NCBI GenBank assembly: GCA_003554965.1
Contig: PWHR01000020.1
Coordinates: forward strand, 1-64,000
DNA: 64,000 bases
Direction of reading: 5' to 3'
From: Thermoplasmata archaeon
GTDB lineage: Archaea; Thermoplasmatota; Thermoplasmata; Halarchaeoplasmatales; Halarchaeoplasmataceae
Program-made: the position numbers and the translations under genes
In this document: piece by piece, positions 1 through 11,918 of the stretch
How positions within the stretch are numbered: position 1 is the first letter of the stretch
How the letters are laid out: every line of letters begins with the position of its first letter
The notes under the pieces: generated by a model
Database searches by the model: none
The model's input: the letters and a program-made list of their open reading frames with translations, nothing else
Told to the model about the DNA's origin: nothing

Positions 1-692
1 ACCACCTCTTCCATCGCATAGTGATATTCAGTGATGTTGGCGTCTCTCGGCATAGGTATGTTAACGGTGAAACCTTCACCTTCATCCTCTCCTATCTCGT
101 GGATATAACCTCTACCTGGATAAAGGGTCGCGGGGTCCTGATGAAGCGAGATGAAAAGCACATTTGGATTTTTCATGAATATATCCATAGTGCCGTTTCC
201 CTGATGAGCATCGGTATCGAGCACTACCACTTTTTTCTTGTTAGAATCAAAATATTCAGCGGCTACAGCCACATCGTTGAAGATACAGAACCCCTCTCCA
301 TAATCCGGTCCAGAATGGTGAAGACCTCCAAGGTTGATGGCAAAATCATGTCCTTCATCGTGGATCATCTTAGCCGCTTCTAAACTACCCCCTACGATAT
401 ATTTACCTGCTTCTGGGGTTCCCTGTTTAACAGGGGTATCCATGGTCAAGGACCCACCGGTCTCTTCCATGCTGTAGACCTCTTCTATATATTCCGATCT
501 GTGAACTTTCCTGAGTACGTCATCATTCACCATGGGAGCTTCCTTGACTTCAACTTCTGAAGCCATCTTCTCTTCATTCTTTACCAGGTCAACAAACCTT
601 GGAAATCTTTTGGGATCGAAGGGATGGAATCTTCCGAAACGATACTTTGCGTATTTTTCATGAAAAAATAAAGGTATCTTATTTTCACTCAT
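1..692 (-). CDS. Class II histone deacetylase / acetoin-utilization (AcuC-like) deacetylase, C-terminus truncated by window edge
   Basis: Reverse-strand reading frame from ATG at 692 open to the window edge; motifs INLGGLHHSGPDYGEGFCIFNDVAVAA and VVVLDTDAHQGNGTMDIF. Not in the ORF track because it runs off the window. Confidence 0.85.
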   Translation of the reverse strand, partial: MSENKIPLFFHEKYAKYRFGRFHPFDPKRFPRFVDLVKNEEKMASEVEVKEAPMVNDDVLRKVHRSEYIEEVYSMEETGGSLTMDTPVKQGTPEAGKYIVGGSLEAAKMIHDEGHDFAINLGGLHHSGPDYGEGFCIFNDVAVAAEYFDSNKKKVVVLDTDAHQGNGTMDIFMKNPNVLFISLHQDPATLYPGRGYIHEIGEDEGEGFTVNIPMPRDANITEYHYAMEEV

Positions 693-1686
693 TTTTTTTC
701 CTCCTTTTCGTTGCCTCTATATGTGCTCTTCTTATAGGGTCCGGTATTTTATAGCGGCAGTAGCTCTTGACGAGCTTTACCGCCTCTGCATGGGAGATAA
801 GGTGACCCGCGGACACATATATAGGATTTTTCGCTCTTTTTCCCGTTAAAAGAGCATGGCCTATCAGCTTTCCGTTCCTTTTTACTTCGGTGCACTTTTT
901 ACCTTCATCTCTATCCAGTTCATCCTGCAAGTGTCCACATAATCTGCTTTTTGCAACTCCTATTGTTGGTACATCTAATTCGACACCTAAATGAGAAGCT
1001 AGGCCTACACCTTTTGGATGCATGACACCGTTGCCGTCTACCATGATAGCATCCGGTTTTCTTTTTAAAGATCCGATAACATCTACAAGAGCGGGCAGTT
1101 CCCTGAAAGCTAGAAAAGTGGGGATGTAAGGAAATCCAACTTCGAGCTTAGATATGAAAACGTCTATCTCCTCTCCACTCTCATGATCCCAGAGCGATAG
1201 TGCAGGAAATGCTTTTCTATCTGAGTATGAAACATCGACTCCCGCGATCAAAGAGAAATCTTGATGATCGTTTTCTACTCTGATTTTTTCTTTGACGTCT
1301 TCTTGTACTTCTCTCAAAGCCTTTAGAGGCTTGTCGGAATCAAAATCATCGAAAAAGATCTGGTCAAATCCTTGGATATTATCTTTTTTGATCTTAACTC
1401 CCTCCTCTTCCAATAATCTTTTCTTTTCTTCTACTCCTCCGCCATAGCCTCCCAGACTCCCATCTGATCTTACTACCCGATGACAGGGGACTTCAACGGG
1501 CCTGGGATTCTGGTTGAGCATCTTGCCTACCGCTCTGGAAGCTCTCTTATCGCCTAGACCTTCAGCTAAAGCACCATAGCTTGAAACCATACCCTCTGGA
1601 ATCTGCGACACTAAAGAATAAAAATCTTCTCTGAAAGATGTTAGACTATTGATACGATCCAAACTGGAAGCTTTATCGGTCTTCAC
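685..1686 (-). CDS. Fusion of O6-alkylguanine-DNA alkyltransferase (MGMT/OGT) and endonuclease V
   Basis: N-terminal half has PVEVPCHRVVRSDGSLGGYGGG (MGMT PCHR active site); C-terminal half has AGVDVSY, IMVDGNGVMHPKGVGLASHLGV and TIGVAKSRLCG (EndoV). Confidence 0.92.
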   Translation of the reverse strand: MKTDKASSLDRINSLTSFREDFYSLVSQIPEGMVSSYGALAEGLGDKRASRAVGKMLNQNPRPVEVPCHRVVRSDGSLGGYGGGVEEKKRLLEEEGVKIKKDNIQGFDQIFFDDFDSDKPLKALREVQEDVKEKIRVENDHQDFSLIAGVDVSYSDRKAFPALSLWDHESGEEIDVFISKLEVGFPYIPTFLAFRELPALVDVIGSLKRKPDAIMVDGNGVMHPKGVGLASHLGVELDVPTIGVAKSRLCGHLQDELDRDEGKKCTEVKRNGKLIGHALLTGKRAKNPIYVSAGHLISHAEAVKLVKSYCRYKIPDPIRRAHIEATKRRKKNE

Positions 1687-1691
1687 TGCTT

Positions 1692-2084
1692 TTACCCTCC
1701 TTCCCTGAGGAGATCGATAGCTGGTGTTCTAGTATAGGTGGGTGCCCTTTCTTTTTCAATACCTTTTTTTTCACGGTGCTCCCACGGCCATATCCTAGAG
1801 ATGTGATCTACTCTAAGATAGACTTCTTCCAGATTTACGCAAACCCAATCTACAAATCCATACATATCATCTCTAGACTTATCTTCATCACCGATGGATT
1901 CCCATTCAATCTTGGAACTAGGGCCCTCAAAAACCTGGCTCAATACGATGGTTCCATCATCGAATTCCTCTAGAACTCCCAGGAAGGCTTTTCCTCCGTC
2001 CATGACCACGATGATTTTCTGCTTTTTCAGTTTCTTCAATTTTTTTTGGAGTAATGTTGCTAACATCTTATGCCCATTGAACAA
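1692..2084 (-). CDS. LSm/Sm-like domain protein
   Basis: Small protein with VVMDGGKAFLGVLEEFDDGTIVLSQVFEG, an Sm1-like motif; directly upstream of the MGMT-EndoV gene. Confidence 0.5.
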   Translation of the reverse strand: MFNGHKMLATLLQKKLKKLKKQKIIVVMDGGKAFLGVLEEFDDGTIVLSQVFEGPSSKIEWESIGDEDKSRDDMYGFVDWVCVNLEEVYLRVDHISRIWPWEHREKKGIEKERAPTYTRTPAIDLLREGG

Positions 2085-2152
2085 TGCAGGTATAAATACA
2101 AATATGTTTTGGAACAGTTCTATGCCCTAGGATATATAAGATCAGCGGGGTT

Positions 2153-2181
2153 CACGAATGTAATGAGTGGGCTCAGCCGGA
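2153..2181. repeat. Direct repeat copy A (29 bp, cacgaatgtaatgagtgggctcagccgga) containing the 3'-terminal 13 bp of tRNA-Val
   Basis: Identical to 2253-2281, offset exactly 100 bp. Confidence 0.95.
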
Positions 2182-2235
2182 CGAATCTATTTCTTTAGAA
2201 ATCGATGAGTAAGAGGAATCTTTGATTCCTCGTGT

Positions 2236-2287
2236 TTCAAATCCGCTGAGAACACGAATGTAATGAGTGGGCTCAGCCGGATTTGAA
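2236..2287. repeat. Inverted repeat: TTCAAATCCGCTGAG (2236-2250) versus the tRNA-Val 3' end CTCAGCCGGATTTGAA (2272-2287)
   Basis: 15 paired bases with one bulged base, 21-nt loop. Confidence 0.9.
2253..2281. repeat. Direct repeat copy B (29 bp) overlapping the 3' end of the tRNA-Val gene
   Basis: Identical to 2153-2181. Confidence 0.95.
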
Positions 2288-2342
2288 CCGGCGACCTTCG
2301 CCATGTGAAGGCGACGTTCTAACCAATCTAAACCATGAGCCC
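2269..2342 (-). tRNA. tRNA-Val (anticodon CAC)
   Basis: Reverse complement GGGCTCA...TCGCC-TTCACAT-GGCGA...GCCGGTTCAAATCCGGC-TGAGCCC: 7-bp acceptor stem, 5-bp anticodon stem, T-arm; anticodon CAC. Confidence 0.95.
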
Positions 2343-2441
2343 TGACCGTAAAACAGGTAAAGTGAGCCAGCTAATAAAATTTTTTATCACACCTCTCATG
2401 GGGGCAACGATTTTATATATTACCCGATATTCAGAATACCG

Positions 2442-2828
2442 ATGGGACTCAATGATTTCGATTTCAAAGTCAAGATAAGATGCCCTTTGTATCCTACTGA
2501 AGATAAAGAAACGCTGATATTCTGTCTTTCTAACATCTTTCCGAAGACCGAGTGGGAGATCAAAGAAGAGGAAGTGGTCGGTGGATCTAGATACTTGACC
2601 AGATTTAAAATGATACTCGAGGAGATGAAGATCCGGGACACCGCCCGAGACTATTTGAGGAAGAACGCTTCAGAGAACGAATGCTCGTTCATCCTTTCAA
2701 AACAGGCCACTTGTAATGAGAAGATCAATTTCTCTCAGCAGGACCAGCCTCTAGGCGGTGTTGAGGTAAAGATCATATGCGATGACATACTTCTTCTTAT
2801 AGATAAACTGACAGAAGTGGATGAGTGA
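2442..2828 (+). CDS. UPF0201 family protein
   Basis: VKIRCPLYPTEDKETLIFCLSNIFP...FILSKQATCNEKINFSQQDQPLGGVEVKI pattern. Confidence 0.75.
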   Translation: MGLNDFDFKVKIRCPLYPTEDKETLIFCLSNIFPKTEWEIKEEEVVGGSRYLTRFKMILEEMKIRDTARDYLRKNASENECSFILSKQATCNEKINFSQQDQPLGGVEVKIICDDILLLIDKLTEVDE

Positions 2829-3604
2829 GCAATATGGAAGATCGTATACTAGCTTCGAATCCGCGTTATTCTTTGATGCCCATAGAAAAAGCACTAGAGA
2901 AGATTGAAGAGGCTTTCTATGGTTGGGAGATCGTAGCTGAGAAAAAACACGGATATGAACACAAAGATGAGATGATAGACGTCCTATCGACCACAGATAT
3001 GACATTACAGCTTCATGCTCCTCTCAACGATATAAATATAGCCAGTATAAACCCCACCATACGAGATGCCAGTATAGAGGAAGTCAAGAGATCTTTAGAA
3101 TTAGCGTCAGCGGTAGGAGTAAATGTCGTGACTGTACATCCTGGCCTATACTCTCCTCTTGCCATCTACTGCGATGATATCCTAGAACTTTCTTTGGATT
3201 CACTCAAACGATTGAAAATAACAGCGGAAGATTTCGGTGTGAAACTTGCGGTAGAAAATTTACCAGAAATGTGGTTGACTTTATGCAGTGAACCCGAAGA
3301 GATCAAAGAGCTGCTCCAGAATTCCGATCTTGGTTTCTGTCTAGATATCGGTCACGCTTACACAGCTGGAAGGCTTCAAGACTTTTTAGAGTTCTCCATA
3401 AAGCCAGTGAACGTCCACCTACATGACAACGAGGGCGGAGATGATATTCACCTACCTCTAGGTGATGGAGAGATAGATTTTCAAAATATCCTAAAAAATC
3501 TGAAAGATTATGATGGTAACTTCGTGATAGAGGGGAGAGGGACGGAGGAATTGAGAAAAAGTAAGAAATTCCTAAAAAGATTGATAAATGATCTAGACAT
3601 TTGA
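2825..3604 (+). CDS. Sugar phosphate isomerase/epimerase-like TIM barrel (AP endonuclease 2 superfamily)
   Basis: LQLHAPLNDINIAS, VVTVHPGLYSP, LAVENLPE, LGFCLDIGHAYTAG, VHLHDNEGGDDIHLPLGDGEIDF, VIEGRG. Confidence 0.85.
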   Translation: MSNMEDRILASNPRYSLMPIEKALEKIEEAFYGWEIVAEKKHGYEHKDEMIDVLSTTDMTLQLHAPLNDINIASINPTIRDASIEEVKRSLELASAVGVNVVTVHPGLYSPLAIYCDDILELSLDSLKRLKITAEDFGVKLAVENLPEMWLTLCSEPEEIKELLQNSDLGFCLDIGHAYTAGRLQDFLEFSIKPVNVHLHDNEGGDDIHLPLGDGEIDFQNILKNLKDYDGNFVIEGRGTEELRKSKKFLKRLINDLDI

Positions 3605-11747: not shown

Positions 11748-11819
11748 GCCACTGTGGCTTAGGGGCAAAGCGATTCCTTGGTAAGGAATAGATCGCGGGT
11801 TCAATTCCCGCCAGTGGCT
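11748..11819 (+). tRNA. tRNA-Thr (anticodon GGT)
   Basis: GCCACTG...ATTCC-TTGGTAA-GGAAT...GCGGGTTCAATTCCCGC-CAGTGGC: complete cloverleaf, anticodon GGT; AT-rich TATA-like box upstream near 11700. Confidence 0.95.
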
Positions 11820-11843
11820 CTCTTCTTTCATTTTAATTATAAA

Positions 11844-11918
11844 GCGGGTTCACGAGCTGATCTCTGATCAGCGAGCGTTAGGAATCTATTCCTGACAGAT
11901 CCCCGCCAGTGGCTCTCT
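11844..11918. repeat. Partial duplication of the tRNA-Thr T-arm/3' end with two internal hairpins
   Basis: GCGGGTTCA (11844-11852) matches 11795-11803; CCCGCCAGTGGCTCTCT (11902-11918) matches 11807-11823; between them GCTGATC-tct-GATCAGC and AGGAAT-ct-ATTCCT. Confidence 0.92.

Follow-up and report, generated by a model that had tools for sequence, protein, structure and literature searches.

Repeat units built from tRNA ends around a double-hairpin element adjoin many tRNA genes in a Thermoplasmata archaeon and its relatives

Introduction

Mobile DNA favours tRNA genes as landing sites. The integrative elements and casposons that target these genes carry genes of their own, use the 3' ends of the tRNAs and leave no inverted copy. 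A different arrangement is found in the E. coli tyrT locus, where the 178-bp repeats (rtT RNA) stand in tandem downstream of the tRNA, each of them starting with a short copy of the tRNA 3' end.

Small palindromic repeats form a second group of described systems. The REP/BIME sequences are non-coding hairpins of 20-60 nt, often paired, with variable stems and GTAG or CGTC tags; their movement as folded single strands has been proposed, and the survey covers bacterial repeats (PMC3733652, PMC8266576). The PATEs of Haloquadratum are derived from IS605 and include 52-bp, terminal-only forms with two palindromes (PMC3119063).

The present analysis concerns a window of 64,000 nucleotides (the whole stretch analysed), which is contig C17 of a Thermoplasmata MAG of 2.33 Mb and 101 contigs, hereafter G000. 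The closest named relatives in a protein search are Candidatus Saliniplasma halalkaliphilum and Thermoplasmata MAG B1Sed10_34, and the relatives of the source genome are haloalkaliphilic. Four congeners (G001-G004) and two genomes of another genus of the same family (G007 and G014) served for comparison. A reading made from the letters alone had noticed partial copies of a tRNA-Val 3' end in a short interval of this window, and had offered three options for it: a minimal tRNA-targeting element, an integration scar or an anti-tRNA-like cis RNA. We show the architecture of the units found there, their match to their own tRNA, their recurrence, the covariation of their structure, their gain and loss between close relatives and their growth in tandem.

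Results

Anatomy of the Val and Thr units

The window holds only two tRNA genes, Val and Thr, and each of them has an adjoining unit (Table 1). Beside tRNA-Val, the 29-bp direct repeat at 2153-2181 and 2253-2281 is exact and its offset is 100, as had been read; it does contain the tRNA 3' end and downstream flank, in the form of 14 nt of tRNA-Val 3' end and 15 nt of trailer, and not the 16 nt of flank that had been given. The inverted T-arm copy TTCAAATCCGCTGAG at 2236-2250 is antisense to the tRNA-Val 3' end with one base missing. The TCAGCGG/CCGCTGA pair and the hairpin GAGGAATC-ttt-GATTCCTC at 2213-2231 are present as well, and the ATTTC-ttta-GAAAT hairpin, located at 2189-2202, proved to be the core of a longer stem (2185-2206).

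In the orientation of the tRNA, the near part of the Val locus reads ...TCCGGCTGAGCCCA, CTCATTACATTCGTG, TT CTCAGC-GGATTTGAA (e, f, e'), the element part reads ACACGAGGAATC aaa GATTCCTCTTA CTC ATCGATTTC taaa GAAATAGAT TCG, and the far part, after TCG, reads TCCGGCTGAGCCCA, CTCATTACATTCGTG, AACCCCGCTGAT (e, trailer, degenerate unit start). The hairpin P3 is bordered by CTC (2207-2209) and TCG (2182-2184). The unit measures about 100 bp, with backward and forward copies of the tRNA end around a small two-hairpin element, and the tandem comprises about 1.3 units in all. The antisense score of e' is 25, against a mean of 10.3 for shuffles (p=0.003). In the Rfam scan the tRNA alone reached the cut-off, and cmscan of window positions 1500-3000 gave no match to RtT (RF00391) up to E=10.

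Table 1. Features of the Val and Thr loci in the window
Feature	Position	Strand	Basis
tRNA-Val, CAC anticodon, intact, CCA not encoded	2267/8-2342	-	ARAGORN; Rfam RF00005, 67.6 bits
Trailer f beside intact tRNA-Val, CTCATTACATTCGTG, probably native	2253..2267	-	resembles trailer of the unit-less orthologous tRNA-Val in G003
e', inverted copy of the tRNA-Val 3' end, CTCAGC-GGATTTGAA	2236..2250	-	direct reading; antisense score
Val double-hairpin element	2182..2235	-	covariance model R1, 63.5 bits, a match by construction since this element is an R1 training sequence
Hairpin P2, GAGGAATC-AAA-GATTCCTC	2213..2231	-	direct reading, folding
Hairpin P3, ATCGATTTC-TAAA-GAAATAGAT	2185..2206	-	direct reading, alignment, folding, covariation
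e, direct copy of the last 14 nt of tRNA-Val, TCCGGCTGAGCCCA	2168..2181	-	repeat comparison
Trailer of tRNA-Val, second copy	2153..2167	-	repeat comparison
Second tandem unit, degenerate start, AACCCCGCTGAT; compare AACTCAGCGGAT at the other tRNA-Val	2141..2152	-	
tRNA-Thr (GGT), second tRNA of the window	11748..11820	+	ARAGORN
Native trailer of tRNA-Thr	11821..11843	+	G003 alignment extends through most of the trailer
Copy of T-stem 5' strand and loop start, GCGGGTTC	11844..11851	+	sequence comparison, G003 alignment
Double-hairpin element, reverse orientation, within the copy's T-loop	11853..11898	-	R1, 34.8 bits, element left out of R1 training
Copy of T-stem 3' strand and acceptor 3' end, CCCGCCAGTGGCT	11902..11914	+	sequence comparison

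At the second locus, the Thr tRNA and its trailer look untouched, and the Thr unit is therefore not a simple integration scar. G002 and G003 lack this unit at the corresponding locus, and in G001 and G004 it is absent beside the matching tRNA; no Val CAC unit is present in G003 and G004. Furthermore, the two Val units of one genome are more alike than orthologues, and some of the contigs terminate within tandem units, which is usual for repeats in an assembly. For another two-hairpin insert, a filled and an empty site can also be compared in a TnpB gene region (L215 of G001, contig C82, versus L205 of G007, contig C102): it carries two different two-hairpin inserts of about 50 nt, and the sites are empty in the relative. 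Elsewhere in the window, the ORF at 685-1686 (minus strand) appears by eye to fuse an alkyltransferase-type domain (PCHRV) to an endonuclease V-like domain.

Recurrence at other tRNA genes

The search for similar sequences at other tRNAs and in relatives, which the sequence-only reading had proposed, returned many such units. With exact matches of 11 nt or more to the terminal 25 nt counted within 250 nt of the tRNA, 5'-end copies lie upstream at 6 of the 43 tRNAs of G000 and 3'-end copies downstream at 6 of 43, one of these six deriving from a neighbouring tRNA. No 5'-end copy lies downstream (0/43), and the 3'-end copies found upstream at two tRNAs are neighbouring tRNA genes or copies. Side-matched copies of own ends are observed at 12 tRNA sides, versus 0.55 expected when flanks are swapped between tRNAs. 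At least 13 of the 44 tRNA genes examined in G000 carry them, a figure that includes Tyr and a Thr gene whose copy measures 9-10 nt, as do 13/29 tRNAs in G007 and 11/34 in G014; in the family, units flank between about one third and one half of the tRNA genes examined.

The typical 3' unit presents, in order, the intact end, the native trailer, the inverted end, a double-hairpin of about 50 nt and the direct end. The other tRNA-Val gene of G000 (contig C68) has an adjoining unit that is 90% similar, and Val-type units also adjoin Val and Ala tRNAs of relatives. In G000, tRNA-Tyr has three tandem units of 104 nt, in which the T-loop of the copy contains the element, two upstream units of 63 nt at tRNA-Gln are built from its own 5' end, and further units derive from the own ends of Thr, Ala, Ser, Leu and other tRNAs. 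The independent word GGAATCNNNGATTCC occurs at 24 sites in the 2.33 Mb, of which no fewer than 13 adjoin tRNA genes, whereas its reversed control occurs at 0. The two copies of the repeat in the window would suit a one-off local duplication without wider meaning; this explanation is refuted by the recurrence at other tRNAs and in relatives, and its probability is practically negligible.

Several related arrangements were recorded on the way. Degenerate, near-full-length copies of tRNA-Ala with the element in the T-loop occur at L104 (G000, contig C80, upstream of tRNA-Ala), L074 and L078. In G007 and G014, tRNA-Glu genes (L237, L245, L266, L269 and L273) have arrays of hairpin units 3', mostly on both sides, and the last stem of these arrays extends into the first bases of the tRNA. 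A tRNA-Met intron (L111, G000 contig C97, 66547-66692) seemingly contains a two-hairpin insert.

Structure and match to the own tRNA

Since the 26 cleanly aligning copies of alignment A1 came from a scan for paired hairpins, their covariation is biased, and we used in its place alignment A2, which comprises 17 Val/Ala 3' units gathered by sequence similarity. With P1 defined as e' paired with the direct copy e, 90.6% of the P1/P3 cells of A2 are paired, versus 80.5% in shuffled alignments. The covariation reaches 0.319 versus 0.144 shuffled, and at most 0.083 when the partner is slid by 1-3 columns; the A2 sequences share a history, so that part of this covariation may be inherited and not independent. 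P1 changes with the tRNA, from U-A to C-G and from C-G to G-C between Val and Ala. Furthermore, the intact tRNA has either A or G at one T-loop position, and in 16 of 17 units e' matches this base, which is absent from the far copy.

Over 82 units, the antisense score averages 15.9 for the own tRNA, versus 11.3 for other tRNAs and 10.6 for shuffled sequences. It reaches p<=0.01 in 30 of the 82, namely 23/42 3' units and 7/40 5' units; e' is not universal and is present in many 3' units. RNA folding predicts a three-way junction in most units tested, with z values against shuffles down to -4.9; the control, a non-unit stretch (L068), gives a z of -0.08.

These results bear on the main rival model, in which the units would be functional RNA domains, transcribed within pre-tRNA leaders or trailers and folded as three-way junctions, whose end copies (5' start upstream, 3' end downstream) would act as RNase P and tRNase Z sites and free unit-length RNAs, in a manner comparable to rtT RNA from the tyrT operon of E. 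coli. The covariation of P1 and P3, the better folding of the units relative to shuffles and the location of the copies on the matching side, where they mark RNase P and tRNase Z ends, are consistent with this model. A trained promoter-like motif also scores 3.78 upstream of the far copy versus 2.53 beside the intact tRNA (background 2.51, p=0.02). This promoter signal is weak, the units turn over fast at orthologous tRNAs, the element occurs in both orientations and the part of the tRNA end to which e' pairs varies, all of which argue against the model, and we consider it unlikely.

The double-hairpin element and its spread

The element is about 45-60 nt long. In A1, GGA and CTC are invariant, the terminal TC is fixed and TCG is found in most rows, and the stems vary in sequence; the motifs GGAA/TTCC and CTC...TCG are kept and the stems covary. 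The covariance model R1 finds 40 matches in G000 at E<=1, and the strong matches in the window are exactly two, one beside each tRNA. At E<=1e-3, 37 of the 60 matches in four genomes are no further than 500 bp from a tRNA that RF00005 detects, a neighbourhood that represents about 2% of these genomes, and three more flank a Tyr gene missed by RF00005, which brings the count to 40/60; this association is inflated because R1 was trained on tRNA-adjacent copies. The same tRNA-adjacent trend is given by the independent word GGAATCNNNGATTCC.

The element occurs in both orientations, in tandem and within non-tRNA repeats. Its distance to the 3' end of the tRNA copy is 13-15 nt for sense elements and about 15-18 nt for reverse ones, and some 5' elements are placed at position 7/8. 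The copies away from tRNAs reside in hairpin arrays and in repeats with common TATAGTCAA-type ends. Hairpin-rich repeats of this kind were observed at L144, L145, L146, L148 and L149 of G000 (contigs C96, C28, C35, C45 and C5) and at L285 and L289 of G002 (contigs C116 and C127); they have ends such as TATAGTCAAGGACACGACTTTT and a double-hairpin at a fixed spot, and several contigs break inside them.

Among 200 genomes of the class, R1 matches all 16 of the own family and 3 of the 184 others; these three are two genomes of family f10 and one of f11, and the matches examined in them are located next to or at tRNA genes, in the layout described above. Side-matched copies were found at 13/21 tRNAs in f4, 2/2 in f2, 3/3 in f10 and 1/1 in f11, three of the four f10/f11 loci having been picked via R1 matches, and at 0 of 53 sampled tRNAs in 13 other families of the class. 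The wider architecture is present in at least five families. In f4 and f2, where R1 scores are weak, the order is e-f-e'-hairpin-e or e-hairpin-e'-f-e, and some units have hairpins other than R1.

Could template switching at tRNA hairpins produce the order e-f-e'-hairpin-e alone, with no mobile element? The hairpins would then be by-products kept palindromic by selection or by repeated switching. A double switch would leave the order e, e', e, the same order stands in f2 and f4 around unrelated hairpins, and the stems differ yet stay complementary. What this explanation does not account for is the shared double-hairpin with its GGAA/TTCC, CTC and TCG motifs, which is not derived from tRNA sequence and recurs beside many tRNAs, in tandem arrays and away from tRNAs; we judge template switching alone quite unlikely.

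Candidate sources and the integration scar

Several candidate sources were examined and rejected. Orthologues show the native near-side trailer, which does not suit a target-site duplication from insertion into the tRNA; likewise, an att scar, expected to result from insertion within the tRNA and to leave the displaced end on the far side and a foreign near-side trailer, was discarded as this trailer matches that of a unit-less orthologue. IS605 right ends were not retained as a parent, the IS605-type ends examined closing with ..TCAC and not with TCG. Of three PF01797 matches, the intact one is IS605-like and one is degenerate inside a hairpin array; no mobilising enzyme could be linked to the element, the sole intact Y1 transposase being the IS605-like one. 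G000 encodes a Y1 transposase on contig C19, at 69210. Casposase integration was rejected on the lack of any PF01867 (Cas1) match in the draft genomes G001, G007 and G014, the last two of which are rich in units. The phage blast and the viral-contig pattern search gave no match, and the plasmid blast returned two Curtobacterium plasmids with matches of 49-50 bp, mostly within the tRNA part.

An integration scar was one of the options first offered; such a remnant, reduced to about 100 bp, could stem from an integrative element, a casposon or another integrase that targets tRNAs. Sense elements do lie 13-15 nt from the tRNA 3' end, that is within the usual att or casposon target. Upstream copies of 5' ends are as frequent as downstream copies of 3' ends, the same double-hairpin is found in either orientation at different tRNAs, and the unit stands beyond a trailer that is native at Thr and probably at Val. 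Together with the results for Cas1 in the G007 and G014 drafts and for viral sequences, these observations disfavour a scar, which is very improbable and largely refuted by the orthologous empty sites. The element is flanked by tRNA-end copies that appear to have been copied locally rather than to represent a target duplication, a feature that PATEs lack.

Discussion

The Val interval belongs to a family of repeat units that flank tRNAs, each composed of a double-hairpin between tRNA-end copies and placed just beyond the tRNA's own trailer or leader. The far-side copy is e, and many 3' units have e' as a near-side copy. The reading that we prefer, tentatively and with something close to even confidence, is that of a REP- or PATE-like mobile palindrome situated within tRNA ends that have been duplicated locally and folded back. 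The element would spread as a non-autonomous mobile palindrome, probably via a folded single strand, and the tRNA-end copies would arise when replication slips and folds back at the tRNA, the foldback copying producing the end backwards (e') and then forwards (e) around the element. The intact tRNA would be spared because the duplication takes place outside it. Once formed, e' may be kept for tying up the stray copy e, thereby preventing the misfolding of the tRNA. A palindrome that is mobile or dispersed in some other way explains the shared double-hairpin, its two orientations, its nesting and the tandem growth; e', e and the match to the own tRNA are accounted for by foldback copying in place. 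Against this reading, no single insertion has been traced to its source, the covariation of the stems would fit a functional RNA too, and f2 and f4 have units with non-R1 hairpins. In a rather unlikely alternative, the units would result from a dedicated capture of tRNA ends, in which small elements would copy the 5' or 3' end of the adjoining tRNA both ways, each unit thereby being tailored to its tRNA, and would be spread by, or cut out as RNA by, tRNA processing signals.

The interpretation given in the sequence-only reading is partly supported. Of its three options, the minimal element, taken as tRNA-associated, comes closest, given the similar units at many tRNAs and in relatives. The literature searched yielded no elements that rebuild tailored ends of the neighbouring tRNA on either side of it and do so at one third to one half of a genome's tRNA genes. 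If this reading holds, the units would be a natural record of the spread of short palindromes and of the behaviour of replication at tRNA genes or, alternatively, a new origin of small RNAs linked to tRNAs in archaea. The presence and absence of the units among close relatives make their origin directly testable.

How do these units compare with the known systems? Like the tyrT repeats, they are tandem units with a copy of the tRNA 3' end, 1.3 units here at Val and three of 104 nt at Tyr. The tyrT system is a single locus without an inverted copy or a 5'-end version, and it has no double-hairpin element shared by many tRNAs. The element resembles REP/BIME sequences in its small, non-coding, often paired hairpins with variable stems, and differs from them in that the units lack the GTAG tag and, apparently, a linked RAYT gene, prefer tRNA ends and copy the host tRNA. 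Indeed, the foot of P3 in A1 is CTC/TCG and not an unpaired GTAG/CGTC tag, and GTC or CGTC precedes GGAA in some copies only. With PATEs, the element shares a length of about 50 bp, two near-terminal palindromes, halophilic archaeal hosts, heterogeneous copies and nesting in mobile elements; PATEs, however, match IS605 ends, and the copying of tRNA ends is not described for them. As with integrative elements and casposons, a tRNA 3'-end repeat of about 14 nt is present, whereas the units also copy 5' ends and hold an inverted copy.

In conclusion, the tyrT, REP and PATE systems each lack the fit in at least one of the defining features tested, so that the unit works partly like them and is not a member of any. 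Our search of the literature on tRNA-flanking palindromic repeats in archaea, in which few subscription journals were covered, found no description of such units. The element resembles dispersed palindromic repeats, its tailored tRNA-end copies are without a described counterpart in the literature searched, and the units apparently represent an undescribed kind of tRNA-hugging repeat.
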